A stretch of 64,000 bases of DNA from Aphanomyces cochlioides (taxonomy: Eukaryota; Oomycota; Saprolegniomycetes; Saprolegniales; Verrucalvaceae): NCBI GenBank assembly GCA_019828595.1, contig JAHQRK010000001.1, positions 2,666,001-2,730,000 on the forward strand, in the 5' to 3' direction. This document shows, piece by piece, positions 8,196-64,000 of the stretch. Below the pieces are notes generated by a model. The model was not told the DNA's origin and did no database searches. It saw only the letters and a program-made list of their open reading frames with translations. A program made the position numbers and the translations under genes. Within the stretch, counting starts at the first letter, position 1, and every line of letters begins with the position of its first letter.

Positions 8196-8211
8196 TCAGC
8201 AGAGCACAATA

Positions 8212-24400: not shown

Positions 24401-25531
24401 TCGATGGGCAGGCAACACAGTGCGATTAGAAGCTGACATCACCAAAAAATCTGTTGATTTTAAGCCAATCAAGTTAGAGTAAAAACAGTAGGCAAATCCT
24501 TTCTACGATTTCCGGACACAACACATAATGCAACTTTCGTAGGAAAATATTGCTGTCGTATGGCAAAAAGTAGAAGGATATTTTCTACATTTTCTGTTTC
24601 ACCTTTTTGAATTTGAGTAGATTCAATAATAAAACCAAGTCAAAAATTTAGTCTGAAATTTTATCGAAATCGTAGAATCAAACCTTCTACCAGTCATATT
24701 GATCTCTAATTGGTCAAAATTTTCGATTTTGCTCCTGGTCATCAAGGCTTGATGATCAAGCCCATCATCAAGCACGACAGGGCAACAAGTTCATAGTTGA
24801 ATAGAGTAATACAAAGCTAACAAATTACCCTCAACACATACTTGATTGTCATTCTTTTTTGTGGTGTATACGATGTGTTAAACTCTTAAAATCATATTGC
24901 AACTTGGCGTGTAACGCTGGAGTTTACAATAGTTCATTAAGCCAATTGCGATTGAATCATGGAAACAGTATTGTGGAGTCGTGGTTACATGTACTTTAGC
25001 TACATTTTGGTGTTTCTGCGTCATTTAACTGCAAACATAATAACATGTAACTTTGAAATCTGTTAAACGCTTCCACTGGATCAGTTGCATCGCATTGCAA
25101 GCATACATCAAAACGAGGTAATTGAGTCCTAGCCTCACCAATGGCATGCTAAGTATATGTTAATTTATTGCTGTAGTTCCTGCTAAACGCAAGCAAAGAT
25201 CATTGCAATTATATGTATTCACTTAGAACAGATTTTAATCCGCAGCAGTAGTCCATTAGTTTGTTTCAATGCTTGCCGCATCATATACAGTAGGCGCTTT
25301 TTTCTAAGTGTGAATCGGTGGCATGCATCATCGATGATGTGATGGTCTAACAGCATCTTCTAAATCACCCTTTATTTAATCTTAATTAGTACAGTAGTGA
25401 GAGAAATTCGATGGGCAGGCAACACAGTGCGATTAGAAGCTGACATCACCAAAAAATCTGTTGATTTTAAGCCAATCAAGTTAGAGTAAAAACAGTAGGC
25501 AAATCCTTTCTACGATTTCCGGACACAACAC
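18483..25531. repeat. Satellite array: seven 1007 bp head-to-tail copies
   Basis: Units start at 18483, 19490, 20497, 21504, 22511, 23518 and 24525 (each ATAATGCAACTTTCG...) and the last ends near 25531. The period is exactly 1007 bp throughout. Units are nearly identical; one visible difference is CTGCGTC versus CTGTGTC about 495 bp into the unit, with the pattern C,T,T,C,T,C,C. The unit is AT-rich and has no reading frame of 60 codons. It contains a hairpin GGCTTGAT/ATCAAGCC (18704-18720 in copy 1) and a perfect palindrome CATCATCGATGATG (19284-19297). No transposon ends were found. Confidence 0.97.
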
Positions 25532-31789: not shown

Positions 31790-32203
31790 CCGGTACACGT
31801 CCGTTCACTACGTATTACAGTAATTTTGAAAGTTTGCTGAGCTTTCAGCGAGTTGGCCAGGTTGACTGCAAGGGTATTATGTCTCAATCAATTGGACTTG
31901 CCTTACGTCCTCGCTTTGCCAAAGACTTTAAGAACTGGCGGTAGTTTACAGTGTTTGTGCAGTTAATTACGTATTTCGGACTCAAAGAGCTGAAGTACCC
32001 TATTTTGTCCAATAGATTTGCAAACTCAATGCAGCCTCGAAGCAAGTCTGGCTACCGGTGATTGATAGTGCCTCGAGTCGCCTAGTGAATTCAAGTATTT
32101 GGAGATACTAGTACACCCTGAGGGTTGATTTTACTTTGAAGTTTTCTAACATATCCTCCAACTTTCACTCTCAGCACCTCCAAAGATGACATTGTGAGAT
32201 CTA
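31790..32203. other. Spacer without recognisable features
   Basis: About 410 bp between pogo-like element 2 and the Helitron. No coding frame, RNA gene or transposon end was recognised. The last base (A, 32203) is the left half of the A|T Helitron target. Confidence 0.5.
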
Positions 32204-32249
32204 TCTATTACTTAAGGCTCTAACGCAACACGTAAGTACGAGACTAAGT

Positions 32250-32410
32250 ACGAGAGTAATTTTTACATACAAACGTCAAGTCAACAAATGAGCAATTTTT
32301 ACATACAAACGCCAAGTCAACAAATGAGCAATTTTTATATACTTTATCCAAGTACAAAATGAGCAATTTTTACATACAAACGCCAAGTCAAAAAAAGAGT
32401 AATTTGAGAC
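32250..32410. repeat. Iteron-like direct repeats near the Helitron 5' end
   Basis: Four copies of an A(G)CAATTTTTACATACAAACG(T/C)CAAGTCAA-type unit of about 36 bp, one degenerate. The same block, with five copies alternating TTTTACATACAAACGCC and TTTTATATACAAATTCC, recurs in every tandem unit about 30-190 bp from its TC end. It may be a Rep-binding region or slippage repeats. Confidence 0.7.
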
Positions 32411-32769
32411 AAGTTCGTTCATGCACCCATGATGCTGGACGTGGCAGTTGTCGATAATATTAATAATCATTCCACATACAAAATGAAAATATTGTCCTAC
32501 TATTTAAAATAATACCTGCCAAAGACGAGATTGGCGCTCCTCCAAAGGAACCCCACTGGACTCTTTCAACCTGTATTAAACCTTCCGCATAATTATCCGG
32601 ATATCCATGGAAACATCCAAGGAAATATCCATGAATATCCGGATAATTATCCGAAGATCCATAGATATTTCCTTGGACGGAACAAAGTGACATGGAATGC
32701 AATGAACGCTGTCATGTATTAGATGTAGGTTTTACGAATAGCTATCACTAAGCCTTTAAAATACATACT

Positions 32770-33030
32770 ACCTGTTGCGTTTTGCTTCGCCACATGAACT
32801 GATCAAGGTAAGATTGGAGGTCGTCAGTTTGAACACCTCGCATGGCCTTCAAGTACTGTTTCACACGTACTTCCCACACACCTTCATTTGACTGTGAGTT
32901 TCATTCAACAGGAGATTCAACTTACTTTCATGCACCATTCAACAGCGGCTGACTCGCTGACTGTTTCCTTCATAACCCTGTCGAACGTGTAGTCCGAGAG
33001 ATCGGACAAGTCATATAGACTGTCTATTGC
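32770..33030 (-). pseudogene. Merlin/ISXO2-like transposase remnant
   Basis: Two minus-strand pieces: YDLSDLSDYTFDRVMKETV with SESAAVEWCMK (about 33020-32935), resembling the N-terminus of oomycete Merlin proteins, and SNEGVWEVRVKQYLKAMRG with LQSYLDQFMWR (about 32885-32775), matching the ISXO2 C-terminal signature YLDEFMWR. They are joined by a 34 bp GTAAGT...CACAG segment that looks like an intron or marks the internal deletion. The catalytic centre is absent. Confidence 0.6.
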
Positions 33031-33111
33031 AAATTTCGAAATGTATGTCCAGACAAGTGAATGGCTCTTATTGTTTGTGTTTAGTGGGTCTCAACTGGAG
33101 TGGTATTCTAT

Positions 33112-33259
33112 TTCTAAGTATAAGGATTGGATGGTTCTCTTTCAATGGCGCGCATTCGTGGGGTCAGATTGGAGTTTATAGTGTATTCTAAGTATAAGGA
33201 TTGGATGGTTCTCTTTCAATGGCGCGCATTCGTGGGGTCAGATTGGAGTTTATAGTGTA
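33112..33259. repeat. 74 bp tandem duplication
   Basis: A 74 bp segment (TTCTAAGTATAAGGATTGG...) occurs twice in direct succession (33112-33185, 33186-33259) inside the Merlin element, with no obvious differences. Confidence 0.9.
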
Positions 33260-34058
33260 TCTGGATAATCGATTCTTTTACCTGGATACAAAATCAATTC
33301 GTCATTTGTCCGTTAATACAGGTTGAAAGAGTCCAGTGGGGTTCCTTTGGAGGAGCGCCACGAGATGCATGGCAATTGGGTTTTTCTGGGACGATGCAAG
33401 GTGAGATGCATGTCTTAGGATAGCTTCACTCGGGCAGAAAAGGCCGCTGAATAAGCGGTCAACACACTGTGCAGTAGGGTGACGAGCCCTTTCTGCCACT
33501 TTAAGCTATACCCTGGCCAGAGGCTTGGACTCCGAAAGGCGAATTCCGACGCGATATGCGAATGTTACGAAGTAGGGCCTTTTTGGCTCGAAATACCGGA
33601 CATTTTCATAGAGCAGCCAGGGACAGCTAAAACGTGTGTTTTTACTGTATTTTCATATTGACTTTGGACGAGTAAATCCTCTCCCCATAGTTCAACTTTT
33701 TACAGTAAGGGGACAATGTGTAACGTTGGTTACCACTATTGCAACTGATGGTGCTACTTTTTTTTGACGGAGTACCACGGTTGATAGTGGGCCTACGGCG
33801 AGTAGATTGAAACACTTCAGGGGTGTTTCATGATACTTAGCAGGTGTATTACCCAGTATCAAAGTTTCAACTCATTGGATGTACGAGTTCAATACGCGAT
33901 ATTAAACAATGTGATGTTTAATAAATACCGCGAATTCTGAACGATTTATGAAAGAAATGAGTAGTATTTTCTGGCAAACCACATTATGTTAAGCTTAAGT
34001 GGTGGGACACATATCCACAGTATTTTTACGATCCAATCACATTATCATTTTTGTGTTG

Positions 34059-37000
34059 ATGTGTTTGTATGAACATTTGTCTGACGCAGTTTTCTGCGTA
34101 GAAAATAACAACTACTCGGCCTCTAAGAAAGGCAAAGGCAATTGCAGTCATGACAATGACAATCAAGGCCATGCGATCGATAACTCCGAACCTGGGAAGC
34201 AAGCAGAGCGGAATGAAGTGCATACTACCGAACAAGAGTCTGCATCAACTGGAGCTAATGGCTGGGCTGTGGATGACGATGCCTTGAATCAGGGCAATAT
34301 TAACGACGAGGTGGCTATGAGAAAGGCCAAGAAGGCGGAGTACAACAATCGTGCTCACGAAAAGAAACGGCAAGCTCTCCTAAAGGCGGAGTACAACAAT
34401 CGTGCTCACGAAAAGTAACGGCAAGCTCTCCTAAAGGCAGAGTACAACAATCGTGCTCACGAAAAGAAGCGGCAAGCTCTCCTAAAGGCGGAGTACAACA
34501 ATCGTGCTCACGAAAAGAAACGGCAAGCTCTCCTAAAGGCGGAGTACAACAATCGTGCTCGCGAAAAGAAACGGCATGCTATCGTGGAAGACTTCGACAA
34601 AGAGGTGGCTATGAAAAGATCCAAGAAGGCGGAATACAACAAACGTGCTCGCGAAAAAAAGCACAACACTGAGGTTGCGAATCAAGGGCGGGGTGCCATC
34701 ATTTTGCACCATACGGACATGGATAAGTGCGACGAAGAGGAAACCAAGGAGGGAGAAGACGGAATCCATTATCACGCTCAAAGTGACCATCATCTCAAGA
34801 TTCTGGCAACTCAGGAGCAAGAAGATCGCGAGCGCACAGTTGACAATCGAAGGATCTATGCTGCGCTACAACCTAACCGTATGAATGAAGGAGGTGAAGA
34901 AGAAACCAAGGAAGAAGATATTTCCGATGGAAATGTGGATTGCAACACTGACAATCAATTACTTGCCTTGGCAAATGCTGATCCTCCGCTAAACGTGGAT
35001 GTGGATTTGATTGATGTACCTCCTCGCGAGCAAGGATTAAGTCTCCGGAATAAACCCAAGGGTCGCCCGAAGAAGAAGAGTGGTCACAACAGTGCACGCG
35101 TCAGTTTCGATGACTTCGATGAATCATTGGTGCCTCTTCATACTATTGAGCAGCGTTCGATTTGCCGCCATTGCGAAGCGAAGATTTGGCCAGGCGAAGA
35201 AAAGGACTGCTGCGGTGGAGGCTCTCGAGTGCTGCCTGTTGCTACCTGGCCTGACACACCCGAGTTTCGCGAATACATTGCTTTGTTCAAAACCAGAGGG
35301 TTCGTCAATAACACTCGCCGGTACAACGCCCTCTTTGCCTTTACATCTATTGGTACCAAAGAAATTATTCACGGCAACGGTGGGCCGAGATCTTATACAA
35401 TCCAAGGCGATTTGCATCATTTGATTGGACCACTATTGCCTGCGGACGAAGAACAAGCCAGTTACGCCCAGATCTACATTACGGATCCTGAAACGCAAGC
35501 AAGCATACGACGAAGAATGCTTGGGGGAAATCTTATTGTGTCAACTGTGACGAAAATTCAGCGTCTACTACTACAGCACAACGCGTTCACCCAGCTGTAC
35601 AAGCATGCGAAGGATATTCCAAAGGATGACGACATGAGAATTGTGCTCACTGGTCAGCCTCGAAGCAACAGCCGAACGCATAACCTTCCTACGTGTTCTG
35701 AAATCGCTGTTCTTTTTTCAGAAACGTCCAAGTCAGGGCGTCATATCTTACTGCATGGTATTGATGGCCCCGTACTCAGCGAAGTTCAGCGAAACTATCA
35801 CGTTGGTAAACATGTGCGTTTGGATCGACAACCTGGGGAACAACGCTTATTTCGCATTAAGGAATTTCATTCGGCATATGACCCGCTTCAATACCCTTTG
35901 CTCTTTCCCACTGGGACTTTGGGGTGGTCGTTTGACAACAAGAGCGGTCGCAATCATGAAAACGTGAGTTTGAACGATTATGCTCGATACCATTTGCACG
36001 AGCGCGGTGCATTCTCTCCATTACATGCCAGCAGACCTCTATTTCAAGTGTTTGCAGTCGACAATTTTGCAAAGATGGAAAACCAAAGGCTTCGATATAT
36101 TCGTGACCAAACCAACAACCTCCGCAGCGACACGTACCGCGCACTTCATGACGCTGTTTCGCATGATGTGGACCTCAGAAGCATTGGAAAAAGGATTGTT
36201 TTGCCGTCATCTTACACGGGTGGACCTCGGTACATGAGACAACGTTACCTTGACGCCATGGCAATTGTTCGCAAGTTCGGTCGACCAGACCTTTTTATCA
36301 CTGTGACATGCAATCCAAAGTGGGTTGAAATCGACAGGGAGCTGGAATTGGCGAAAGACGACTATGGATTTAAACGATCTCCAGCTGATCGACCTGACTT
36401 AGTGACGCGCATGTTCCGTCCCAAGCTCTTAGCCATTGAAGCCATGCTGTACAAGGGGGAAGTTTTGGGTCGACAAGCTGCGTGTGTTCGTGTTGTCGAA
36501 TTCCAAAAGCGTGGTCTGCCTCATGCCCATATATTGGTCATATTCACTGGGGACGACAAAATCAAGACAGCTGCCGATATTGACAGTATTATCAGTGCAG
36601 AAAACCCCGACAAGGAAAAGAATCCAAGATTGCACGAAATTGTTACAACCTGCATGATTCACATATGCAGCGACCGATGCCTGGAAAACGGGAAGTGCAA
36701 GAAAAACTTTCCAAAAGCATACTGCAACGAAACATCAGAAGGCAGTGATGGATATCCACTCTACCGTCGTCGCCGCTCTTCGGCAGAGCGGCCCTCGGAG
36801 TATACCAACCAATATGTTATTCTGTACTGCCCAACGTTGAGCGCCATGTTCGACTGCCACATCAATGTCGAGGCGTGTACAAGTATATCTGCAGTCAAGT
36901 ACCTGTACAAGTACATCTACAAGGGCTCAGACCACTCAAATTTTCAACTTGAGTCCGGTGAACTTGACGAAATCATGCAATACCAAGATGCCCGCTATGT

Positions 37001-37805
37001 ATCGTGCTGTGAGGCCCTCACACGCATTTTCTCTTTCGACATGTTCAAACGATCTCACGCTGTCGAGAACCTCGAAATACACTTGGAAGGTGAACAAGTT
37101 GTATGCATTCCTACCGACCGCCCGATGAGCCCTCAGGAATTGGCAAGGAGGAACCGGACGAAACTCACCGCGTTTTTTGAACTGTGCCGTGAAAACAGTG
37201 ATTCACAAGCACTTGCGCGTGAATGTCTGTACTCTGATATCCCCGAGCATTTCGTATGGAACTCAAAGCTCCGCAAGTGGACATCACGTAAAAAGGGTGG
37301 TGATCGTATGATCGGGAGGATGCTGACGGTGTCACCCCGCTCGGGAGACTGTTTTTTTATGCGAATGCTCTTATGCTACCGACGAGGTCCGACATCGCAC
37401 GAAGATTTGCGAACCGTCAATGGCGTGGTTCATCAGACGTTCAAGTCAGCCGCACTTGCCCTTGGCTTTCTTGAAAATGACGAGGAATGGCTAACCTGCA
37501 TGCGAGAAGCAACTGAAACAGCAACTCCCTATGAGCTCCGAACACTTTTTGTCAGTATTCTGATTCACTGTGAACCTGCGGATGCACGAGGGCTATGGAA
37601 CAAATTCGAAGATGAAATGAGGCAAGATTTTCACCGCATGTACCTTGACGATTCTCAAAAATCTACAGCTTTCGCAATTCAGGCTTTATCAAGATGCCTC
37701 GAGTCGAATGCATCAAGCTTGGATCGTTTTCCGGAGCTTCCACAGCTTGCACATTTCGAACAATATTTTGCTCTTGAGGAAACAAACAGGAATCCAACCG
37801 ATTAG
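34059..37805 (+). pseudogene. Helitron Rep (HUH endonuclease) part
   Basis: Rolling-circle initiator. The frame from ATG 34059 is interrupted only by a TAA at 34416-34418, where repeat copies have AAA, and continues to 37805. The N-terminal part carries five near-identical 51 bp (17-codon) repeats containing KAEYNNRAHEKK (about 34328-34570), then acidic sequence and a Cys/His cluster (CRHCEAKIWPGEEKDCCGG). The Rep core has PDLFITVTCNPKW (motif 1), GLPHAHILVI with the metal-binding HxH at 36521-36529 (motif 2), and KYLYKYIYKG at 36897-36929 with the catalytic tyrosines (motif 3). It ends at TAG 37803-37805, and the helicase follows in another frame with a 1 nt overlap. Helitrons normally encode one Rep-Hel protein. 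Confidence 0.9.
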
Positions 37806-39316
37806 TGGCTATGGAATCTTCGCACAACCAAGAACAAATCCAAGGCATTTTGGAAGGCAAGTCTACGATGACCGAAGAGCACGAGGTCTTCTACAACGAC
37901 GTTATGAGCGAGATTACGAAGGAAAGCACTGTTCGAAGAGGCAAAGTATATTTTCTCGAAGGTGAGGGCGGCTCAGGGAAGACGTTCATCTCAAACATTT
38001 TACTGGCTCAAGTGCGCTCAATGAACAAAATTGCGTTGGCTGTTGCTTCGTCCGGACTTGCTGCTCTGAATTTGATCGGAGGTACAACTGCGCATTCGAG
38101 ATTCTGTCTTCCAAGATCATTGCACGAGCTTAGCCGATGCGACGTTCGGAAGCAGTCACATCTTGCGGAACTTTTACGTCTCACAGAACTTATCATTTGG
38201 GACGAGTGTTCGATGATGCACAAGTATGCTGTGGAGGCCGTTGATCACATGCTACAAGATTTGATGGACAACGCGCTTCCTTTTGGTGGAAAGGTCGTCA
38301 TATTCTCGGGCGACTTCAAGCAAATGCTTCCAGTCATTTTGAAGGGCACACCTGGGCTAATCCTCGAAGCATGCTTGAAGAACAGCTACCTTTGGAGAAA
38401 TATCGCACAGTTTCATCTGACGGTTAACATGAGGTTGACCAACAACAACTCAGAGAGTGTTCGAGAGTTTGCTGCATTGCTCAAGTCTATTGGTCATGGA
38501 ACATACCCCACATGTACCGAACTCGGTGCCGATTACATTCGACTACCTGATGATTTGGCGATTCCATACAAGTCGCCTGATGATTTGGGGTCATTTTTAC
38601 ACAGCGTCTATCAAGACATGAACAACCTGCGCATCAATGCACTTAGATCGTACTTTGGATGTCGAGCTATCCTTGCACCCAAACACAGTGTTGTTGCTGA
38701 CATCAACACAACACTTCTTGAGCGACTCACTTCCGACTGCGAAATGACATATTTGTCCGCCGATTCTGTTGCTGACAAACCCAACTCGGACACAAATGCA
38801 TGCGAGTTGCCCATCGAGTTTCTGAATTCTATAGACATCAACAACTTCCCCAGCCACAAGTTGCATTTGAAAGTTGGTTGTCCCATTATTCTGCTTCGTA
38901 ATTTGTGTACTTCGGAAGGCATGTGCAACGGAACACGTTTAATTGTTCTTGAGCTGAAAACACGATGTATCAAGGCTCAAATTATGAACGGCTCCCACAC
39001 GAACAAGATCGTTTACATTCCCTGAACTACTACAATCCACGATGGTAAGCAAAACAATTACCCATTTGAGCTACGCAGAAGACAATTTCCTGTTCAAGTT
39101 GCCTTTGCAATGACGATTCACAAGGCTCAAGGTCAAACGATTTCTCACGTGGGCGCCTACCTTCCAGAACCCGTCTTCTCGCATGGACAGCTTTACGTCG
39201 TCATGTCAAGAGCCCAAGCAAAAGGCAACATTAAGTTTTTGGTCGCCAATGGACAGTACGATGGACTGCCTGGAATCTACACGAAAAACATTGTGTATCA
39301 AGAAGCATTAGAATAG
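37805..39316 (+). pseudogene. Helitron PIF1-like helicase part
   Basis: 5'-3' superfamily 1B helicase. Walker A is GEGGSGKTF (37961-37987), Walker B is IIWDECSMM (about 38195-38221), motif III is FSGDFKQMLPV, and motif IV is HLTVNMR. A TGA at 39023-39025 interrupts the frame; the same frame then continues with FAMTIHKAQGQT and FSHGQLYVVMSRA, motifs V-VI, to the stop at 39314. One nonsense codon thus removes the last motifs. There is no own ATG near the junction with Rep apart from the MAMES region, so it was probably the C-terminal half of a single Rep-Hel polypeptide. Confidence 0.88.
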
Positions 39317-40143
39317 CCAGGACTTCATAAAACTTCATCCATAACTAACAAACGTTATCATGTTCTTACAAATATTTACACTGTGTTGTTGTGGAATTGC
39401 CGTGACTTCCTGGATCAAGTCCAATTGCATCGTACCGATGAATTGGACGATAAATCATCGAGATTAGCTAACCCCAAACTACGCACCTTATACTTAGATT
39501 CAATGTTACAGTATTACAAGAGGAAGAAGTAGGTGGTTGTCAACCAACGATGACCTCGATCTACTAATCGATCGCACAGATTGTGCAATCTGAACTTGGA
39601 TATATTCTGCTTAGATTCAATCTCAGCATTAAAATGGGAGAAGCATATCGAACAGCGGCAAGCTATAAAATTATCAAAGAGTCTGCTTCTTGGAAACAGT
39701 CTTTTTGCCGTTCACATCGTGCGCAAAGTTGCCGCAACAGGAAAGATCTCTATACCAGCAGTACAACCAGCTGCTGAAACTTCGGCATTTAAATTGACCT
39801 TCTTGACCGTGCTCCTAGAACCTCCACCCACCACATGCCACGCTCACATTGGACACAACCGTAGATTACCATCGAAGGTTCGCCTTTCTCCATCTAGATA
39901 TACTATGTCTCCGACATGTTGGTAGTCGCCTTGAGCATCATCTAAGCGCATGGTCATCAGTGTCTTGCAGTCAAATGCGCCGTGAATAGGACTGGGTACC
40001 TCGAGCGTCTGTATTATCACTGATAAGTCGTTCGTGTTATCTGTGCAAGTACTGTCATTTTTGCACAACAAAACAGGGAAACTAATGAGGCCAATTCGAA
40101 CTAAAATAAGAAAGAAGTGAATAAGGAGTGCGAAGTAAATGCC
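39317..40143. other. Helitron 3' non-coding region with a possible antisense ORF
   Basis: No plus-strand gene is convincing. On the minus strand, 40071-39844 reads with phrases such as HVGDIVYLDGERRTFDGNLRL, which resembles an OB-fold strand pattern as in RPA-like proteins carried by some Helitrons. Sense may continue past a TGA at 39844. This is weak. 40043-40142 is present in inverted orientation inside every tandem unit. Confidence 0.25.
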
Positions 40144-40242
40144 GTCTCCTTAGTTTCAAAATAATATGATCTCTGATTGGATAATTTATTTTTCTTTCGG
40201 TACGAGTCGACGGTTTTTTGGTCAGGACATGATTTATCTCCT

Positions 40243-40266
40243 GACGAAAAAAAAAATTCGTCAGTC
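40243..40266. repeat. CTGACGAA/TTCGTCAG hairpin with variable A tract
   Basis: CTGACGAA, an A tract, and TTCGTCAG form an inverted repeat. It recurs in the tandem units with a variable number of A residues and accounts for part of their length variation; one unit (near 47350) has lost the right arm. Confidence 0.7.
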
Positions 40267-40410
40267 AACAGTAGCCAATCAGAATGCTCGGCGTTAACTT
40301 ATTTTTTTACTTCGAACTGGGCCTGAATCAAATTCAAAATTCATAGTATGGCATCAAACGTTTCATGTGTGTGATCAAATCTTTGTTATTTCCAAAGCAA
40401 AACGCTCCAC

Positions 40411-40439
40411 CCAGGGGCGTAGCCCTGGCCTCACCCTAG
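40411..40439 (+). terminator. Helitron 3' terminus (hairpin plus CTAG)
   Basis: CCAGGGGCGTAGCCCTGG forms a 6 bp stem (or 7 bp with a bulge), then CCTCACC and CTAG. In Helitrons this structure is the transposition terminator. The next base starts the TC of the following unit, and the same junction recurs at every unit boundary to 63147. Confidence 0.88.
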
Positions 40440-43400
40440 TCTATTACTTAAAGCTCTAACGCAACACGTAAGTATGAGAGTAATTTTTACATACAAACGT
40501 CAAGTCAAAAAATGAGTAATTTTATATACAAATTCCAAGTACAAAAATGAGTAATTTTTACATACAAACGCCAAGTCAAAAAAAGAATAATTTTTATATA
40601 CAAATTCCAAGTACAAAAATGAGTAATTTTTACATACAAACGCCAAGTCAAAAAAGAGTAATTTGAGACAAGTTCGTTCATAATAGTCAGCACTTCCAAC
40701 CAACATCAACTAATTTGACCACTCAAGGTTGTATTGCCCGATATCCTTGGCAAATATCCATTTGGTGTGATGTTGTCAATTATTTGGTGTGTTGCTCAAT
40801 ACTTAGTGTCATGTTTTGTCACGATGTAACCCATGTTGCTGGACGTGCCAGTTGTCGATAATATTAATAATCAAACAATTCCACATTCATATATGTTTGA
40901 AAATATTGTCCTACTATTTAAAATAATACCTGCCAAAGATGAGATGGATGGCAGTTGGGTTTTTCTGGGACTTCGCACTCCTTATTCACTTCTTTCTTAT
41001 TTTACTTCGAATTGGCCTCAATAGTTTCCCTGTTTTGTTGTGCAAAAATGACAGTACTTGCACTACATTGTTTAATATCGCTTATTGAACTCGTACATCC
41101 AATGAGTTGAAACTTTGATACTGGGTAATACACCTGCTAAGTATTCATGCAACACCCCTTAAGTGATTCATGATACTCGCCGTAGGCCCACTATCAACAG
41201 TGGTACTCCATAAAAAAAGTAGCACCATCAGTTGCAATAGTGGTAACCAACGTTACACATTGTCCCCTTACTGTAAAAAGTTGAACTATGGGGAGAGGAT
41301 TTACTCGTCCAAAGTCAATATGAAAATACAGTAAAAACACACGTTTTAGCCGCCCCTGGCTGCTCTATGAGAAAGTCCGGTATTTCGAGCCAAAAAGGCC
41401 CTACTTCGTTGCATTCGCATATCGCGTCGGAATTCGCCTTTCGGAGTCCAAGCCTCTGGCCAGAGTATGGCTTAAAGTGGCAGAAAGGACTCGTCACCCT
41501 ACTGCACAGTGAGTTGACCGCTTATTCAGCGGCCTTTTCTGCCCGAGTGAAGCTATCTTAAGTCTCCTTAGTTTCAAAATAATATGATCTCTGATTGGAT
41601 AATTTATTTTTCTTTCGGTACGAGTCGACGGTTTTTTGGTCAGGACATGATTTATCTCCTGACGAAAAAAAAAATTCGTCAGTCAACAGTAGCCAATCAG
41701 AATGCTCGGCGTTAACTTATTTTTTTACTTCGAACTGGGCCTGAATCAAATTCAAAATTCATAGTATGGCATCAAACGTTTCATGTGTGTGATCAAATCT
41801 TTGTTATTTCCAAAGCAAAACGCTCCACCCAGGGGCGTAGCCCTGGCCTCACCCTAGTCTATTACTTAAAGCTCTAACGCAACACGTAAGTATGAGAGTA
41901 ATTTTTACATACAAACGTCAAGTCAAAAAATGAGTAATTTTTATATACAAATTCCAAGTACAAAAATGAGTAATTTTTACATACAAACGCCAAGTCAAAA
42001 AAAGAATAATTTTTATATACAAATTCCAAGTACAAAAATGAGTAATTTTTACATACAAACGCCAAGTCAAAAAAGAGTAATTTGAGACAAGTTCGTTCAT
42101 AATAGTCAGCACTTCCAACCAACATCAACTAATTTGACCACTCAAGGTTGTATTGCCCGATATCCTTGGCAAATATCCATTTGGTGTGATGTTGTCAATT
42201 ATTTGGTGTGTTGCTCAATACTTAGTGTCATGTTTTGTCACGATGTAACCCATGTTGCTGGACGTGCCAGTTGTCGATAATATTAATAATCAAACAATTC
42301 CACATTCATATATGTTTGAAAATATTGTCCTACTATTTAAAATAATACCTGCCAAAGATGAGATGGATGGCAGTTGGGTTTTTCTGGGACTTCGCACTCC
42401 TTATTCACTTCTTTCTTATTTTACTTCGAATTGGCCTCAATAGTTTCCCTGTTTTGTTGTGCAAAAATGACAGTACTTGCACTACATTGTTTAATATCGC
42501 TTATTGAACTCGTACATCCAATGAGTTGAAACTTTGATACTGGGTAATACACCTGCTAAGTATTCATGCAACACCCCTTAAGTGATTCATGATACTCGCC
42601 GTAGGCCCACTATCAACAGTGGTACTCCATAAAAAAAGTAGCACCATCAGTTGCAATAGTGGTAACCAACGTTACACATTGTCCCCTTACTGTAAAAAGT
42701 TGAACTATGGGGAGAGGATTTACTCGTCCAAAGTCAATATGAAAATACAGTAAAAACACACGTTTTAGCCGCCCCTGGCTGCTCTATGAGAAAGTCCGGT
42801 ATTTCGAGCCAAAAAGGCCCTACTTCGTTGCATTCGCATATCGCGTCGGAATTCGCCTTTCGGAGTCCAAGCCTCTGGCCAGAGTATGGCTTAAAGTGGC
42901 AGAAAGGACTCGTCACCCTACTGCACAGTGAGTTGACCGCTTATTCAGCGGCCTTTTCTGCCCGAGTGAAGCTATCTTAAGTCTCCTTAGTTTCAAAATA
43001 ATATGATCTCTGATTGGATAATTTATTTTTCTTTCGGTACGAGTCGACGGTTTTTTGGTCAGGACATGATTTATCTCCTGACAAAAAAAAAAATTCGTCA
43101 GTCAACAGTAGCCAATCAGAATGCTCGGCGTTAACTTATTTTTTTACTTCGAACTGGGCCTGAATCAAATTCAAAATTCATAGTATGGCATCAAACGTTT
43201 CATGTGTGTGATCAAATCTTTGTTATTTCCAAAGCAAAACGCTCCACCCAGGGGCGTAGCCCTGGCCTCACCCTAGTCTATTACTTAAAGCTCTAACGCA
43301 ACACGTAAGTATGAGAGTAATTTTTACATACAAACGTCAAGTCAAAAAATGAGTAATTTTTATATACAAATTCCAAGTACAAAAATGAGTAATTTTTACA

Positions 43401-52400: not shown

Positions 52401-55400
52401 GTACTTGCACTACATTGTTTAATATCGCTTATTGAACTCGTACATCCAATGAGTTGAAACTTTGATACTGGGTAATACACCTGCTAAGTATTCATGCAAC
52501 ACCCCTTAAGTGATTCATGATACTCGCCGTAGGCCCACTATCAACAGTGGTACTCCATAAAAAAAGTAGCACCATCAGTTGCAATAGTGGTAACCAACGT
52601 TACACATTGTCCCCTTACTGTAAAAAGTTGAACTATGGGGAGAGGATTTACTCGTCCAAAGTCAATATGAAAATACAGTAAAAACACACGTTTTAGCCGC
52701 CCCTGGCTGCTCTATGAGAAAGTCCGGTATTTCGAGCCAAAAAGGCCCTACTTCGTTGCATTCGCATATCGCGTCGGAATTCGCCTTTCGGAGTCCAAGC
52801 CTCTGGCCAGAGTATGGCTTAAAGTGGCAGAAAGGGCTCGTCACCCTACTGCACAGTGAGTTGACCGCTTATTCAGCGGCCTTTTCTGCCCGAGTGAAGC
52901 TATCTTAAGTCTCCTTAGTTTCAAAATAATATGATCTCTGATTGGATAATTTATTTTTCTTTCGGTACGAGTCGACGGTTTTTTGGTCAGGACATGATTT
53001 ATCTCCTGACGAAAAAAAAAATTCGTCAGTCAACAGTAGCCAATCAGAATGCTCGGCGTTAACTTATTTTTTTACTTCGAACTGGGCCTGAATCAAATTC
53101 AAAATTCATAGTATGGCATCAAACGTTTCATGTGTGTGATCAAATCTTTGTTATTTCCAAAGCAAAACGCTCCACCCAGGGGCGTAGCCCTGGCCTCACC
53201 CTAGTCTATTACTTAAAGCTCTAACGCAACACGTAAGTATGAGAGTAATTTTTACATACAAACGTCAAGTCAAAAAATGAGTAATTTTTATATACAAATT
53301 CCAAGTACAAAAATGAGTAATTTTTACATACAAACGCCAAGTCAAAAAAGAATAATTTTTATATACAAATTCCAAGTACAAAAATGAGTAATTTTTACAT
53401 ACAAACGCCAAGTCAAAAAAGAGTAATTTGAGACAAGTTCGTTCATAATAGTCAGCACTTCCAACCAACATCAACTAATTTGACCACTCAAGGTTGTATT
53501 GCCCGATATCCATGGCAAATATCCATTTGGTGTGATGTTGTCAATTATTTGGTGTGTTGCTCAATACTTAGTGTCATGTTTTGTCACGATGTAACCCATG
53601 TTGCTGGACGTGCCAGTTGTCGATAATATTAATAATCAAACAATTCCACATTCATATATGTTTGAAAATATTGTCCTACTATTTAAAATAATACCTGCCA
53701 AAGATGAGATGGATGGCAGTTGGGTTTTTCTGGGACTTCGCACTCCTTATTCACTTCTTTCTTATTTTACTTCGAATTGGCCTCAATAGTTTCCCTGTTT
53801 TGTTGTGCAAAAATGACAGTACTTGCACTACATTGTTTAATATCGCTTATTGAACTCGTACATCCAATGAGTTGAAACTTTGATACTGGGTAATACACCT
53901 GCTAAGTATTCATGCAACACCCCTTAAGTGATTCATGATACTCGCCGTAGGCCCACTATCAACAGTGGTACTCCATAAAAAAAGTAGCACCATCAGTTGC
54001 AATAGTGGTAACCAACGTTACACATTGTCCCCTTACTGTAAAAAGTTGAACTATGGGGAGAGGATTTACTCGTCCAAAGTCAATATGAAAATACAGTAAA
54101 AACACACGTTTTAGCCGCCCCTGGCTGCTCTATGAGAAAGTCCGGTATTTCGAGCCAAAAAGGCCCTACTTCGTTACATTCGCATATCGCGTCGGAATTC
54201 GCCTTTCGGAGTCCAAGCCTCTGGCCAGAGTATGGCTTAAAGTGGCAGAAAGGGCTCGTCACCCTACTGCACAGTGAGTTGACCGCTTATTCAGCGGCCT
54301 TTTCTGCCCGAGTGAAGCTATCTTAAGTCTCCTTAGTTTCAAAATAATATGATCTCTGATTGGATAATTTATTTTTCTTTCGGTACGAGTCGACGGTTTT
54401 TTGGTCAGGACATGATTTATCTCCTGACGAAAAAAAAAAAATTCGTCAGTCAACAGTAGCCAATCAGAATGCTCGGCGTTAACTTATTTTTTTACTTCGA
54501 ACTGGGCCTGAATCAAATTCAAAATTCATAGTATGGCATCAAACGTTTCATGTGTGTGATCAAATCTTTGTTATTTCCAAAGCAAAACGCTCCACCCAGG
54601 GGCGTAGCCCTGGCCTCACCCTAGTCTATTACTTAAAGCTCTAACGCAACACGTAAGTATGAGAGTAATTTTTACATACAAACGTCAAGTCAAAAAATGA
54701 GTAATTTTTATATACAAATTCCAAGTACAAAAATGAGTAATTTTTACATACAAACGCCAAGTCAAAAAAGAATAATTTTTATATACAAATTCCAAGTACA
54801 AAAATGAGTAATTTTTACATACAAACGCCAAGTCAAAAAAGAGTAATTTGAGACAAGTTCGTTCATAATAGTCAGCACTTCCAACCAACATCAACTAATT
54901 TGACCACTCAAGGTTGTATTGCCCGATATCCATGGCAAATATCCATTTGGTGTGATGTTGTCAATTATTTGGTGTGTTGCTCAATACTTAGTGTCATGTT
55001 TTGTCACGATGTAACCCATGTTGCTGGACGTGCCAGTTGTCGATAATATTAATAATCAAACAATTCCACATTCATATATGTTTGAAAATATTGTCCTACT
55101 ATTTAAAATAATACCTGCCAAAGATGAGATGGATGGCAGTTGGGTTTTTCTGGGACTTCGCACTCCTTATTCACTTCTTTCTTATTTTACTTCGAATTGG
55201 CCTCAATAGTTTCCCTGTTTTGTTGTGCAAAAATGACAGTACTTGCACTACATTGTTTAATATCGCTTATTGAACTCGTACATCCAATGAGTTGAAACTT
55301 TGATACTGGGTAATACACCTGCTAAGTATTCATGCAACACCCCTTAAGTGATTCATGATACTCGCCGTAGGCCCACTATCAACAGTGGTACTCCATAAAA

Positions 55401-58400
55401 AAAGTAGCACCATCAGTTGCAATAGTGGTAACCAACGTTACACATTGTCCCCTTACTGTAAAAAGTTGAACTATGGGGAGAGGATTTACTCGTCCAAAGT
55501 CAATATGAAAATACAGTAAAAACACACGTTTTAGCCGCCCCTGGCTGCTCTATGAGAAAGTCCGGTATTTCGAGCCAAAAAGGCCCTACTTCGTTGCATT
55601 CGCATATCGCGTCGGAATTCGCCTTTCGGAGTCCAAGCCTCTGGCCAGAGTATGGCTTAAAGTGGCAGAAAGGGCTCGTCACCCTACTGCACAGTGAGTT
55701 GACCGCTTATTCAGCGGCCTTTTCTGCCCGAGTGAAGCTATCTTAAGTCTCCTTAGTTTCAAAATAATATGATCTCTGATTGGATAATTTATTTTTCTTT
55801 CGGTACGAGTCGACGGTTTTTTGGTCAGGACATGATTTATCTCCTGACGAAAAAAAAAATTCGTCAGTCAACAGTAGCCAATCAGAATGCTCGGCGTTAA
55901 CTTATTTTTTTACTTCGAACTGGGCCTGAATCAAATTCAAAATTCATAGTATGGCATCAAACGTTTCATGTGTGTGATCAAATCTTTGTTATTTCCAAAG
56001 CAAAACGCTCCACCCAGGGGCGTAGCCCTGGCCTCACCCTAGTCTATTACTTAAAGCTCTAACGCAACACGTAAGTATGAGAGTAATTTTTACATACAAA
56101 CGTCAAGTCAAAAAATGAGTAATTTTTATATACAAATTCCAAGTACAAAAATGAGTAATTTTTACATACAAACGCCAAGTCAAAAAAGAATAATTTTTAT
56201 ATACAAATTCCAAGTACAAAAATGAGTAATTTTTACATACAAACGCCAAGTCAAAAAAAAAAAGAGTAATTTGAGACAAGTTCGTTCATAATAGTCAGCA
56301 CTTCCAACCAACATCAACTAATTTGACCACTCAAGGTTGTATTGCCCGATATCCATGGCAAATATCCATTTGGTGTGATGTTGTCAATTATTTGGTGTGT
56401 TGCTCAATACTTAGTGTCATGTTTTGTCACGATGTAACCCATGTTGCTGGACGTGCCAGTTGTCGATAATATTAATAATCAAACAATTCCACATTCATAT
56501 ATGTTTGAAAATATTGTCCTACTATTTAAAATAATACCTGCCAAAGATGAGATGGATGGCAGTTGGGTTTTTCTGGGACTTCGCACTCCTTATTCACTTC
56601 TTTCTTATTTTACTTCGAATTGGCCTCAATAGTTTCCCTGTTTTGTTGTGCAAAAATGACAGTACTTGCACTACATTGTTTAATATCGCTTATTGAACTC
56701 GTACATCCAATGAGTTGAAACTTTGATACTGGGTAATACACCTGCTAAGTATTCATGCAACACCCCTTAAGTGATTCATGATACTCGCCGTAGGCCCACT
56801 ATCAACAGTGGTACTCCATAAAAAAAGTAGCACCATCAGTTGCAATAGTGGTAACCAACGTTACACGTTGTCCCCTTACTGTAAAAAGTTGAACTATGGG
56901 GAGAGGATTTACTCGTCCAAAGTCAATATGAAAATACAGTAAAAACACACGTTTTAGCCGCCCCTGGCTGCTCTATGAGAAAGTCCGGTATTTCGAGCCA
57001 AAAAGGCCCTACTTCGTTGCATTCGCATATCGCGTCGGAATTCGCCTTTCGGAGTCCAAGCCTCTGGCCAGAGTATGGCTTAAAGTGGCAGAAAGGGCTC
57101 GTCACCCTACTGCACAGTGAGTTGACCGCTTATTCAGCGGCCTTTTCTGCCCGAGTGAAGCTATCTTAAGTCTCCTTAGTTTCAAAATAATATGATCTCT
57201 GATTGGATAATTTATTTTTCTTTCGGTACGAGTCGACGGTTTTTTGGTCAGGACATGATTTATCTCCTGACGAAAAAAAAAATTCGTCAGTCAACAGTAG
57301 CCAATCAGAATGCTCGGCGTTAACTTATTTTTTTACTTCGAACTGGGCCTGAATCAAATTCAAAATTCATAGTATGGCATCAAACGTTTCATGTGTGTGA
57401 TCAAATCTTTGTTATTTCCAAAGCAAAACGCTCCACCCAGGGGCGTAGCCCTGGCCTCACCCTAGTCTATTACTTAAAGCTCTAACGCAACACGTAAGTA
57501 TGAGAGTAATTTTTACATACAAACGTCAAGTCAAAAAATGAGTAATTTTTATATACAAATTCCAAGTACAAAAATGAGTAATTTTTACATACAAACGCCA
57601 AGTCAAAAAAGAATAATTTTTATATACAAATTCCAAGTACAAAAATGAGTAATTTTTACATACAAACGCCAAGTCAAAAAAAGAGTAATTTGAGACAAGT
57701 TCGTTCATAATAGTCAGCACTTCCAACCAACATCAACTAATTTGACCACTCAAGGTTGTATTGCCCGATATCCATGGCAAATATCCATTTGGTGTGATGT
57801 TGTCAATTATTTGGTGTGTTGCTCAATACTTAGTGTCATGTTTTGTCACGATGTAACCCATGTTGCTGGACGTGCCAGTTGTCGATAATATTAATAATCA
57901 AACAATTCCACATTCATATATGTTTGAAAATATTGTCCTACTATTTAAAATAATACCTGCCAAAGATGAGATGGATGGCAGTTGGGTTTTTCTGGGACTT
58001 CGCACTCCTTATTCACTTCTTTCTTATTTTACTTCGAATTGGCCTCAATAGTTTCCCTGTTTTGTTGTGCAAAAATGACAGTACTTGCACTACATTGTTT
58101 AATATCGCTTATTGAACTCGTACATCCAATGAGTTGAAACTTTGATACTGGGTAATACACCTGCTAAGTATTCATGCAACACCCCTTAAGTGATTCATGA
58201 TACTCGCCGTAGGCCCACTATCAACAGTGGTACTCCATAAAAAAAGTAGCACCATCAGTTGCAATAGTGGTAACCAACGTTACACATTGTCCCCTTACTG
58301 TAAAAAGTTGAACTATGGGGAGAGGATTTACTCGTCCAAAGTCAATATGAAAATACAGTAAAAACACACGTTTTAGCCGCCCCTGGCTGCTCTATGAGAA

Positions 58401-61400
58401 AGTCCGGTATTTCGAGCCAAAAAGGCCCTACTTCGTTGCATTCGCATATCGCGTCGGAATTCGCCTTTCGGAGTCCAAGCCTCTGGCCAGAGTATGGCTT
58501 AAAGTGGCAGAAAGGGCTCGTCACCCTACTGCACAGTGAGTTGACCGCTTATTCAGCGGCCTTTTCTGCCCGAGTGAAGCTATCTTAAGTCTCCTTAGTT
58601 TCAAAATAATATGATCTCTGATTGGATAATTTATTTTTCTTTCGGTACGAGTCGACGGTTTTTTGGTCAGGACATGATTTATCTCCTGACGAAAAAAAAA
58701 AAAATTCGTCAGTCAACAGTAGCCAATCAGAATGCTCGGCGTTAACTTATTTTTTTACTTCGAACTGGGCCTGAATCAAATTCAAAATTCATAGTATGGC
58801 ATCAAACGTTTCATGTGTGTGATCAAATCTTTGTTATTTCCAAAGCAAAACGCTCCACCCAGGGGCGTAGCCCTGGCCTCACCCTAGTCTATTACTTAAA
58901 GCTCTAACGCAACACGTAAGTATGAGAGTAATTTTTACATACAAACGTCAAGTCAAAAAATGAGTAATTTTTATATACAAATTCCAAGTACAAAAATGAG
59001 TAATTTTTACATACAAACGCCAAGTCAAAAAAGAATAATTTTTATATACAAATTCCAAGTACAAAAATGAGTAATTTTTACATACAAACGCCAAGTCAAA
59101 AAAAGAGTAATTTGAGACAAGTTCGTTCATAATAGTCAGCACTTCCAACCAACATCAACTAATTTGACCACTCAAGGTTGTATTGCCCGATATCCATGGC
59201 AAATATCCATTTGGTGTGATGTTGTCAATTATTTGGTGTGTTGCTCAATACTTAGTGTCATGTTTTGTCACGATGTAACCCATGTTGCTGGACGTGCCAG
59301 TTGTCGATAATATTAATAATCAAACAATTCCACATTCATATATGTTTGAAAATATTGTCCTACTATTTAAAATAATACCTGCCAAAGATGAGATGGATGG
59401 CAGTTGGGTTTTTCTGGGACTTCGCACTCCTTATTCACTTCTTTCTTATTTTACTTCGAATTGGCCTCAATAGTTTCCCTGTTTTGTTGTGCAAAAATGA
59501 CAGTACTTGCACTACATTGTTTAATATCGCTTATTGAACTCGTACATCCAATGAGTTGAAACTTTGATACTGGGTAATACACCTGCTAAGTATTCATGCA
59601 ACACCCCTTAAGTGATTCATGATACTCGCCGTAGGCCCACTATCAACAGTGGTACTCCATAAAAAAGTAGCACCATCAGTTGCAATAGTGGTAACCAACG
59701 TTACACATTGTCCCCTTACTGTAAAAAGTTGAACTATGGGGAGAGGATTTACTCGTCCAAAGTCAATATGAAAATACAGTAAAAACACACGTTTTAGCCG
59801 CCCCTGGCTGCTCTATGAGAAAGTCCGGTATTTCGAGCCAAAAAGGCCCTACTTCGTTGCATTCGCATATCGCGTCGGAATTCGCCTTTCGGAGTCCAAG
59901 CCTCTGGCCAGAGTATGGCTTAAAGTGGCAGAAAGGACTCGTCACCCTACTGCACAGTGAGTTGACCGCTTATTCAGCGGCCTTTTCTGCCCGAGTGAAG
60001 CTATCTTAAGTCTCCTTAGTTTCAAAATAATATGATCTCTGATTGGATAATTTATTTTTCTTTCGGTACGAGTCGACGGTTTTTTGGTCAGGACATGATT
60101 TATCTCCTGACGAAAAAAAAAAATTCGTCAGTCAACAGTAGCCAATCAGAATGCTCGGCGTTAACTTATTTTTTTACTTCGAACTGGGCCTGAATCAAAT
60201 TCAAAATTCATAGTATGGCATCAAACGTTTCATGTGTGTGATCAAATCTTTGTTATTTCCAAAGCAAAACGCTCCACCCAGGGGCGTAGCCCTGGCCTCA
60301 CCCTAGTCTATTACTTAAAGCTCTAACGCAACACGTAAGTATGAGAGTAATTTTTACATACAAACGTCAAGTCAAAAAATGAGTAATTTTTATATACAAA
60401 TTCCAAGTACAAAAATGAGTAATTTTTACATACAAACGCCAAGTCAAAAAAGAATAATTTTTATATACAAATTCCAAGTACAAAAATGAGTAATTTTTAC
60501 ATACAAACGCCAAGTCAAAAAAGAGTAATTTGAGACAAGTTCGTTCATAATAGTCAGCACTTCCAACCAACATCAACTAATTTGACCACTCAAGGTTGTA
60601 TTGCCCGATATCCATGGCAAATATCCATTTGGTGTGATGTTGTCAATTATTTGGTGTGTTGCTCAATACTTAGTGTCATGTTTTGTCACGATGTAACCCA
60701 TGTTGCTGGACGTGCCAGTTGTCGATAATATTAATAATCAAACAATTCCACATTCATATATGTTTGAAAATATTGTCCTACTATTTAAAATAATACCTGC
60801 CAAAGATGAGATGGATGGCAGTTGGGTTTTTCTGGGACTTCGCACTCCTTATTCACTTCTTTCTTATTTTACTTCGAATTGGCCTCAATAGTTTCCCTGT
60901 TTTGTTGTGCAAAAATGACAGTACTTGCACTACATTGTTTAATATCGCTTATTGAACTCGTACATCCAATGAGTTGAAACTTTGATACTGGGTAATACAC
61001 CTGCTAAGTATTCATGCAACACCCCTTAAGTGATTCATGATACTCGCCGTAGGCCCACTATCAACAGTGGTACTCCATAAAAAAGTAGCACCATCAGTTG
61101 CAATAGTGGTAACCAACGTTACACATTGTCCCCTTACTGTAAAAAGTTGAACTATGGGGAGAGGATTTACTCGTCCAAAGTCAATATGAAAATACAGTAA
61201 AAACACACGTTTTAGCCGCCCCTGGCTGCTCTATGAGAAAGTCCGGTATTTCGAGCCAAAAAGGCCCTACTTCGTTGCATTCGCATATCGCGTCGGAATT
61301 CGCCTTTCGGAGTCCAAGCCTCTGGCCAGAGTATGGCTTAAAGTGGCAGAAAGGGCTCGTCACCCTACTGCACAGTGAGTTGACCGCTTATTCAGCGGCC

Positions 61401-64000
61401 TTTTCTGCCCGAGTGAAGCTATCTTAAGTCTCCTTAGTTTCAAAATAATATGATCTCTGATTGGATAATTTATTTTTCTTTCGGTACGAGTCGACGGTTT
61501 TTTGGTCAGGACATGATTTATCTCCTGACGAAAAAAAAAAAATTCGTCAGTCAACAGTAGCCAATCAGAATGCTCGGCGTTAACTTATTTTTTTACTTCG
61601 AACTGGGCCTGAATCAAATTCAAAATTCATAGTATGGCTTCAAACGTTTCATGTGTGTGATCAAATCTTTGTTATTTCCAAAGCAAAACGCTCCACCCAG
61701 GGGCGTAGCCCTGGCCTCACCCTAGTCTATTACTTAAAGCTCTAACGCAACACGTAAGTATGAGAGTAATTTTTACATACAAACGTCAAGTCAAAAAATG
61801 AGAAATTTTTATATACAAATTCCAAGTACAAAAATGAGTAATTTTTACATACAAACGCCAAGTCAAAAAAAGAATAATTTTTATATACAAATTCCAAGTA
61901 CAAAAATGAGTAATTTTTACATACAAACGCCAAGTCAAAAAAAGAGTAATTTGAGACAAGTTCGTTCATAATAGTCAGCACTTCCAACCAACATCAACTA
62001 ATTTGACCACTCAAGGTTGTATTGCCCGATATCCATGGCAAATATCCATTTGGTGTGATGTTGTCAATTATTTGGTGTGTTGCTCAATACTTAGTGTCAT
62101 GTTTTGTCACGATGTAACCCATGTTGCTGGACGTGCCAGTTGTCGATAATATTAATAATCAAACAATTCCACATTCATATATGTTTGAAAATATTGTCCT
62201 ACTACTTAAAATAATACCTGCCAAAGATGAGATGGATGGCAGTTGGGTTTTTCTGGGACTTCGCACTCCTTATTCACTTCTTTCTTATTTTACTTCGAAT
62301 TGGCCTCAATAGTTTCCCTGTTTTGTTGTGCAAAAATGACAGTACTTGCACTACATTGTTTAATATCGCTTATTGAACTCGTACATCCAATGAGTTGAAA
62401 CTTTGATACTGGGTAATACACCTGCTAAGTATTCATGCAACACCCCTTAAGTGATTCATGATACTCGCCGTAGGCCCACTATCAACAGTGGTACTCCATA
62501 AAAAAAGTAGCACCATCAGTTGCAATAGTGGTAACCAACGTTACACATTGTCCCCTTACTGTAAAAAGTTGAACTATGGGGAGAGGATTTACTCGTCCAA
62601 AGTCAATATGAAAATACAGTAAAAACACACGTTTTAGCCGCCCCTGGCTGCTCTATGAGAAAGTCCGGTATTTCGAGCCAAAAAGGCCCTACTTCGTTGC
62701 ATTCGCATATCGCGTCGGAATTCGCCTTTCGGAGTCCAAGCCTCTGGCCAGAGTATGGCTTAAAGTGGCAGAAAGGGCTCGTCACCCTACTGCACAGTGA
62801 GTTGACCGCTTATTCAGCGGCCTTTTCTGCCCGAGTGAAGCTATCTTAAGTCTCCTTAGTTTCAAAATAATATGATCTCTGATTGGATAATTTATTTTTC
62901 TTTCGGTACGAGTCGACGGTTTTTTGGTCAGGACATGATTTATCTCCTGACGAAAAAAAAAAATTCGTCAGTCAACAGTAGCCAATCAGAATGCTCGGCG
63001 TTAACTTATTTTTTTACTTCGAACTGGGCCTGAATCAAATTCAAAATTCATAGTATGGCATCAAACGTTTCATGTGTGTGATCAAATCTTTGTTATTTCC
63101 AAAGCAAAACGCTCCACCCAGGGGCGTAGCCCTGGCCTCACCCTAGTCTATTACTTAAAGCTCTAACGCAACACGTAAGTATGAGAGTAATTTTTACATA
63201 CAAACGTCAAGTCAAAAAATGAGAAATTTTTATATACAAATTCCAAGTACAAAAATGAGTAATTTTTACATACAAACGCCAAGTCAAAAAAGAATAATTT
63301 TTATATACAAATTCCAAGTACAAAAATGAGTAATTTTTACATACAAACGCCAAGTCAAAAAAAGAGTAATTTGAGACAAGTTCGTTCATAATAGTCAGCA
63401 CTTCCAACCAACATCAACTAATTTGACCACTCAAGGTTGTATTGCCCGATATCCATGGCAAATATCCATTTGGTGTGATGTTGTCAATTATTTGGTGTGT
63501 TGCTCAATACTTAGTGTCATGTTTTGTCACGATGTAACCCATGTTGCTGGACGTGCCAGTTGTCGATAATATTAATAATCAAACAATTCCACATTCATAT
63601 ATGTTTGAAAATATTGTCCTACTATTTAAAATAATACCTGCCAAAGATGAGATGGATGGCAGTTGGGTTTTTCTGGGACTTCGCACTCCTTATTCACTTC
63701 TTTCTTATTTTACTTCGAATTGGCCTCAATAGTTTCCCTGTTTTGTTGTGCAAAAATGACAGTACTTGCACTACATTGTTTAATATCGCTTATTGAACTC
63801 GTACATCCAATGAGTTGAAACTTTGATACTGGGTAATACACCTGCTAAGTATTCATGCAACACCCCTTAAGTGATTCATGATACTCGCCGTAGGCCCACT
63901 ATCAACAGTGGTACTCCATAAAAAAGTAGCACCATCAGTTGCAATAGTGGTAACCAACGTTACACATTGTCCCCTTACTGTAAAAAGTTGAACTATGGGG
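40440..64000 (+). repeat. Head-to-tail array of 1.42 kb non-autonomous Helitrons
   Basis: Units start (TCTATTACTTAAAGC) at 40440, 41858, 43277, 44695, 46116, 47531, 48948, 50366, 51787, 53205, 54625, 56043, 57466, 58888, 60307, 61726 and 63147. There are sixteen complete units of 1415-1423 bp and one cut by the window. Each ends in the hairpin and CTAG and abuts the next TC with no target sequence between. Each contains the 5' end and iteron block, an inverted segment matching 40135-40043 and 33914-33420 of the large copy, and its 3' 296 bp; Rep-Hel is absent. Units are nearly identical. Open frames of 60-84 codons repeated in each unit are by-products of this conservation. Confidence 0.95.

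Follow-up and report, generated by a model that had tools for sequence, protein, structure and literature searches.

Head-to-tail Helitrons are already known, and what is new in the case described here is its scale, its complete-ended units and the pattern of its ends. The case lies in a 64,000-nucleotide stretch of the genome of the water mould Aphanomyces cochlioides (GenBank assembly GCA_019828595.1, contig JAHQRK010000001.1, forward-strand positions 2,666,001 to 2,730,000), called the window below, in which a Helitron with Rep and helicase domains stands at the head of an array of short Helitron units.

The closest described systems, cited here from the available portions of each text, differ in size and in the explanations offered for them. 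For a single head-to-tail pair in maize (Du et al., 2008; PMC2267711, which also cites the head-to-tail Helitrons of bats from Pritham and Feschotte), both a rolling-circle multimer and consecutive insertion were put forward, and the same two explanations were offered for three tandem copies in Metarhizium, reported together with joined-end PCR products (PMC5148889); in the available text of both papers the choice between them is left undecided. The 2018 Helraiser paper (PMC5876387) notes that tandem arrays occur in plants and bats, and it makes use of a circle with a precise joint. According to a review (PMC12628747), Xiong et al. (2016) described centromeric Helitron arrays of plants amplified by rolling-circle copying, and McGurk and Barbash described transposon dimers that result from a preference for certain insertion sites and that can grow into satellites. 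Changes of repeat number within rice Helitrons have been attributed to slippage or unequal crossing-over (PMC4683698). For A. euteiches, rolling-circle repeats amounting to 1.5 Mb are reported, as are satellites resembling transposons, including Helitron (PMC8780586). Head-to-tail arrays were the topic of no title or abstract opening found on Helitron and Aphanomyces, a search that lay mostly outside the subscription literature.

A coding Helitron followed by 29 private units

The window corresponds to C1:2666001-2730000 in an assembly of 76.2 Mb and 94 contigs; contigs are labelled C1, C2 and so on, and C1a, C1b, C3a, C10a and the like denote other Helitron places on them. Read through the window and the next 30 kb of contig C1, the insertion is a 49.3-kb composite in which an 8.2-kb Rep/helicase Helitron is joined to 29 units of 1.4 kb, all complete-ended and found only here in the assembly, and it occupies a single A/T site in the form A/TC...CTAG/T, where the slash marks a boundary. 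The CTAG of the lead element ends at 40439 and the TC of unit 1 opens at 40440. The exact CTAG/TC joints number 29, with 17 of them inside the window, and they recur every 1,415-1,423 bp; the stretch contains no N, and host DNA is absent between units. The last unit ends in CTAG/T at window coordinate 81518 (C1:2747518), 17.5 kb beyond the window; with A/TC on the left, at 32203/32204, the insertion fits between an A and a T with no duplicated target, as in canonical Helitrons. An earlier sequence-only reading of the locus had placed CTAG/TC at 40440 and at every unit boundary without intervening host DNA, as all 29 joints confirm, and had pointed to the far end as the place to look for an A/T target, which is present there; the tandem array that it described is real, with 29 units rather than the "at least 17" that it counted.

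That the number or order of units is an artefact of assembly is scarcely to be credited. Homopolymer length varies among the units and the judgement is made from the assembly alone, not from reads, but a single 5.05-Mb contig carries both flanks, the stretch holds no N, single-nucleotide polymorphisms (SNPs) are ordered along the units, and like joints recur at many places.

The composite seems to lie close to the edge of one copy of a different repeat that is uninterrupted elsewhere, a placement suggested by the unbroken matches of the joined flanks. Among the 40 scored rows listed of 296 candidates, taken at their scores, two represent the flanks themselves, 33 continue without a break over the insertion point and cover 12-19 bases to its left, and five start at the insertion point or to the right of it.

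Coordinates of the composite, numbered from the first base of the window
Feature	Position	Strand	Remarks
Left boundary	32203..32204	+	Host A, then TC of the lead element (A/T target); from sequence and joined-flank search
Lead element, Rep/helicase Helitron	32204..40439	+	8,236 bp; 5' TC, 3' CTAG
Rep open frame	34584..37805	+	PF14214; HAH and two-tyrosine motifs readable
PIF1-type helicase	37787..39313	+	Frame other than Rep's; listed open reading frame 37805-39025; in-frame TGA 39023-39025
Last 296 bp of lead element	40144..40439	+	Identical to 3' tail of unit 1
3' terminus of lead element	40411..40439	+	CCAGGG-GCGTAG-CCCTGG palindrome, then 7 bases, then CTAG
Array of ~1.4-kb complete-ended units	40440..64000	+	16 whole units and start of 17th; runs on to unit 29
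Unit 1, 5' block	40440..40970	+	36-bp tandem repeat at 40478-40664; coordinates transferred from unit 2, ~1 bp
Unit 1, first inverted block	40970..41063	-	Inverted relative to lead element 7840-7933
Unit 1, second inverted block	41065..41562	-	Inverted relative to lead element 1211-1709
Unit 1, direct 3' tail	41562..41857	+	Lead element 7941-8236

The lead element and the units have canonical Helitron ends (5' TC, 3' CTRR). The lead element also has the canonical content of a Rep (HUH) and a PIF1-type helicase, with domain matches to PF14214 (E 5.6e-52), PF05970 (E 1e-64) and PF21530 and with HAH, two-tyrosine and Walker-type helicase motifs legible in its translations. The domains agree with the autonomous type first proposed for this copy. 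Its autonomy is less secure, as Rep and helicase are split over two frames and the helicase frame meets a stop at 39023-39025, and the copy is probably defective, barring sequencing errors behind the frame breaks. Helper Helitrons may exist elsewhere in the genome, because a genome search with Rep gave 47 match rows. Against proteins, the best match to Rep comes from A. euteiches (89% identity, 92% query coverage), among 22 matches from that species at 77-90% identity, and two A. astaci matches stand at 36-37%. A canonical Helitron would have a GC-rich hairpin close to its 3' end. The CCAGGG/CCCTGG palindrome lies 11 bases from the 3' end; the predicted DNA fold prefers another nearby stem and is no better than that of shuffled sequences (z -0.70). 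Directly before the Rep frame, which opens at 34584, a coding-like 51-bp repeat occupies window positions 34332-34580 in 4.9 copies with 95% matches.

Comparison of unit 2 with the lead element gives 84-95% identity in the 5' pieces (89.5% in the longest), 97.9% in the inverted block 7840-7933, 95.4% in the inverted block 1211-1709, and 99.66% in the direct tail 7941-8236, the last 296 bp of the units ranging from 99.7 to 100%. Both Helitron ends are kept in every one of the 29 units, and the layout appears to be what remains of a full-length copy with an inverted interior and a lost coding middle. The 5' block resembles copies on C8 (97.0%) and C12 (94.8%) more closely than it does the lead element, and the unit was therefore not cut from its neighbour. 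The early picture of a Rep/helicase copy heading an array of short derivatives holds for the arrangement; units as deletion derivatives of the adjoining copy were rejected, with 5' pieces at 84-95% and inverted blocks at 95-98%. A dispersed non-autonomous family was likewise rejected. With up to 3 mismatches allowed, each of two unit-specific breakpoint patterns gives 29 matches genome-wide, all in the window array, and neither finds a dispersed copy or donor in the assembly (29/29 and 29/29 within the array).

Variation along the array

By substitutions, with gaps ignored, the units are 99.8% identical. Apart from one homopolymer stretch, their alignment holds 14 SNP columns, and in 7 of these the minor allele occurs in at least two units; indel columns were excluded from the SNP tests because homopolymer errors are possible. 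Units differ by 2.7 SNPs on average, by 1.96 at lag 1 and by up to 3.2 at lag 20, and adjacent units are alike (Mantel r 0.365, matched by none of 10,000 permutations). A derived-looking T in column 314 is confined to units 1-5. The A of column 1342 is clustered leftward (P 0.00015) and is also the allele of the lead element, whose last 296 bp are those of unit 1, including this allele dominant in the left units. A 3' variant, GGTTTTTTGG, was considered as a sign, private to this locus, of exchange with the lead copy and rejected, as it occurs 89 times genome-wide and 30 times in the window array; because it is so frequent, only the exact 296-bp identity and the column-1342 allele count as evidence.

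All four allele combinations occur in 10 of 21 column pairs, which implies segment exchange between units or sites that mutated twice. Such exchange is left unexplained by 29 successive insertions alone, each at the A/T regenerated by the previous one and without recombination. This course is very unlikely for the array: regeneration of the site in every round is in its favor, as is the proposal of the same model for one maize pair (PMC2267711, in its available text), but a donor of the unit would be required, and the assembly yielded none.

A private tandem unit and local sharing of variants, as looked for in a satellite grown from a dimer, are both found in the window array. The suggestion, made from the first sight of the sequence, of satellite birth from a Helitron gains by the private unit and by the variants that neighboring units share.

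Inner joints, outer ends and the founding of arrays

The joint recurs throughout the genome. Sought at other loci, as the sequence-only reading had proposed, the 16-base exact joint was found 173 times genome-wide and its reversed-pattern control not once; at up to 3 mismatches each, Helitron 3' ends number 271 and 5' ends 408. The joints fall at no fewer than 34 places on 22 contigs, by manual grouping among the matches listed (100 of 173 and 81 of 81), and some of these places may belong together in fewer arrays, for example C35, C48, C53 and C68, all spaced at 1,953 bp. Joint spacings elsewhere range from ~1.4 to 11 kb, and C10:127-156k alternates units of ~6.8 and 4.4 kb. A T follows the right array end in all 12 cases examined, with C1b ending in CTAA, and left array ends follow an A in 8 of 10 examined. 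A partial 5'-end copy, 18 bases long and itself starting A/TC, is interposed at the left edge of C3a; the boundary of C10b is degenerate.

The account held here, with moderate confidence, is that a pair was founded at the Helitron's own A/T and was then expanded in place by unequal homologous exchange into a local satellite. The pair would form at the A/T regenerated by the 5' boundary of a resident Helitron; as this site is regenerated at every insertion, the joint would always be CTAG/TC and host DNA would be absent. The right-hand partner would have been, or would have turned into, a short element by interior inversion and deletion. Unequal homologous exchange between sister chromatids or homologues would then start in the 296-bp tail common to both partners, and continued exchange of whole units would multiply the founder joint to 29 units and spread variants locally. 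Helitron transposition would be required for the founding insertions only, the array itself being an in-place satellite of a Helitron pair. The founding step is one that we infer; amplification by homologous exchange draws support from the pattern of the ends, from the privacy of the unit and from the cline of variants.

A one-step multimer predicts equal outer and inner ends, whereas a founder joint followed by unequal exchange predicts equal inner joints and unequal outer ends. For the other arrays the comparison covers the end regions and joint flanks. The joints compared are all those of C1a (2/2), C2 (2/2), C3a (2/2), C5 (5/5), C10a (4/4), C8a (5/5) and C12b (3/3), with 4/22 in C10b, 3/8 in C89, 2/3 in C17 and the 29 of the window; in C5 and C10a the coverage is ~120-170 bp of 5' flank and 126-134 bp of 3' flank. 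C12b and C17 enter with their joints and with none of their outer ends, and the first-5'-end test is without C89 and C2.

Inner joints are free of substitutions in C1a, C2, C3a, C5, C10a and C10b, with a few gaps in C3a, C5 and C10b. They show 1-2 substitutions in C12b and 7/142 and 7/300 in C17; in C89 the 3' side of the first joint deviates (29/300) and the other two joints agree. C10a's exact joint, recognisable by CTCGCCCTAG, has four matches in the genome, all four within C10a. The outer ends differ from the inner ones, at odds with a multimer, on the 5' side in all seven arrays tested (the window and six others) and on the 3' side in five of eight. The last 3' end is unlike the inner ones in C1a (34/300), C2 (22/290), C3a (21/290), C5 (3/97) and C10a (4/86). 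For the first 5' end the mismatches are 16-18/240 in the window, against its first six units, 73/400 in C1a (inflated by extra 5' repeats), 18-25/290 in C8a, 14-20 of 166-175 in C10a, 2/120 to 13/175 in C5, 5/290 in C3a and 2-3 of 165-236 in C10b, counts that copy-number changes of the 36-bp repeat inflate in favor of the account and that in C10b concern an end preceded by a degenerate Helitron 3' end, possibly not the true edge. C1a, C2 (at its 3' end only), C3a, C5 and C10a fit a founder joint between two unlike Helitrons that was multiplied by unequal exchange.

Places with only two elements bear on how such pairs begin. The partners at C9a are unlike at both ends (21/290 and 26/290), and at C6a the 5' ends differ (20/290) and the 3' ends barely do (2/290). 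By rough reasoning, random choice of A/T among millions of sites would almost never give exact end-to-end pairs; therefore either pairs move together, or integration prefers the A/TC at a resident 5' boundary. Unlike partners (C9a, and C6a in its 5' ends) would favor integration at a resident A/TC over pairs moving as pairs. The further proposal that the family targets itself, its integration being drawn to resident A/TC so that head-to-tail pairs are a normal product and exchange turns them into private satellites genome-wide, is put forward tentatively and remains doubtful.

Several observations weigh against founding and exchange as described, beyond the inflated counts already given. Taken singly, 2 of 7 informative SNP columns (314 and 1342) are clustered and the other five are not. 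The joints of C8a are mixed, and the last 3' end is without substitutions in C89 (against two of its three joints) and in C10b. In the pair C1b the first 400 bp are identical, with 3 mismatches at the 3' end, as a rolling-circle dimer likewise predicts. In the window 0-2 substitutions and 2-4 gaps separate the last 3' end from the inner ones, a near-equality that leaves the outer-end test one-sided at this locus.

That last observation is a reason for keeping a rolling-circle multimer in view at the window locus. A circle, or a copy read past its terminator, would have been copied many times and the concatemer inserted once, with the lead element arriving later at the 5' A/T of the array and gene conversion producing the cline and the shared tail. 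The exact joints and the homogeneity of the units suit this course, and the available portions of two texts describe precise-joint circles for Helraiser (PMC5876387) and suggest them for Fusarium (PMC5148889). It is rather unlikely all the same: copy-out transposition should leave a donor or dispersed unit, which is not in the assembly, outer ends are unlike inner ones in five other arrays, and the tail of the lead element is identical to that of unit 1. The burst of rolling-circle copying that the sequence-only reading favored loses ground on the missing dispersed unit and the five sister arrays, and also on the variants shared by neighbors and the unlikeness of the lead element's 5' end to those of the units.

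Recombination of an extrachromosomal circle of at least one unit with a resident Helitron, within the shared tail, would give hybrid outer elements and equal inner joints. The end pattern it leaves is identical to that of unequal exchange, which also tells against a firm choice of the latter. It requires an extra step, a circle of a unit without any other copy, and unlike pairs such as C6a and C9a exist without a circle; integration of this kind is quite unlikely.

Other arrangements of the same Helitron were met in the genome. The host site of the array at C10:127109-156285, the one with the 6.8/4.4-kb alternation, is palindromic, with ACACTGTTAATACCAATAATA flanking on the left and TAATTTATTATTGGTATTAACAGTGT on the right. 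Divergent arrays, minus then plus strand, occur at C35:298332-301533, C48:10630-13831 and C16:1224264-1237340. The centres of those on C35 and C48 are equal in length at 3,201 bp; the C35 centre joins interior Rep pieces from both strands, and a perfect palindrome there was rejected, the best 300-bp self-complement being 34%. The 5' end alone is repeated at C1:1026598-1027013 (four copies at a period of ~127 bp) and C3:62998-63215 (three copies at a period of ~92 bp). On C8, at 1868-1899k, 5' ends recur every ~965-982 bp and reach near the contig end (1,903,443), which makes another long array of short Helitron units, possibly with a higher-order pattern. The window itself carries a second tandem array, unlike the Helitron, at 18482-25530, with seven copies of 1,007 bp that are near-identical (98% with a 300-bp reference including flank, or 100%); its sequence also occurs as dispersed single copies at 98-99% identity on C67, C19, C6 (two), C14 and C4.

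Comparison with described arrays

This genome offers many arrays in which the founder joint and the outer ends remain distinguishable, so that founding and amplification are separately testable. The window array is a legible case, in a water mould, of satellite birth from a transposon pair and of how jumping genes can seed satellite DNA.

As far as the available texts go, the likeness to the maize pair (PMC2267711) is close, as there too CTAG runs straight into TC in a G/T joint without a host base, and insertion at the A/T of a resident 5' end is among the models proposed. Maize presents a single pair, whereas here there are 29 units at one place, 173 joints in the genome, and evidence on how the joint was multiplied. 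The Helitrons of Fusarium and Metarhizium (PMC5148889) are mostly Helitron2 with asymmetric inverted repeats, in contrast to the canonical TC, CTAG and A/T of the present family. The centromeric arrays of plants, as the review describes them (PMC12628747), likewise consist of Helitron derivatives in tandem, from several units up to hundreds; their members are truncated, and many combine multiple 5' ends with one 3' end, a pattern absent from the window array, where all 29 units have both ends. The dimers of Drosophila elements treated in the same review lead to satellites as is proposed here, with the difference that here a water-mould Helitron family is concerned, with complete ends and private units.

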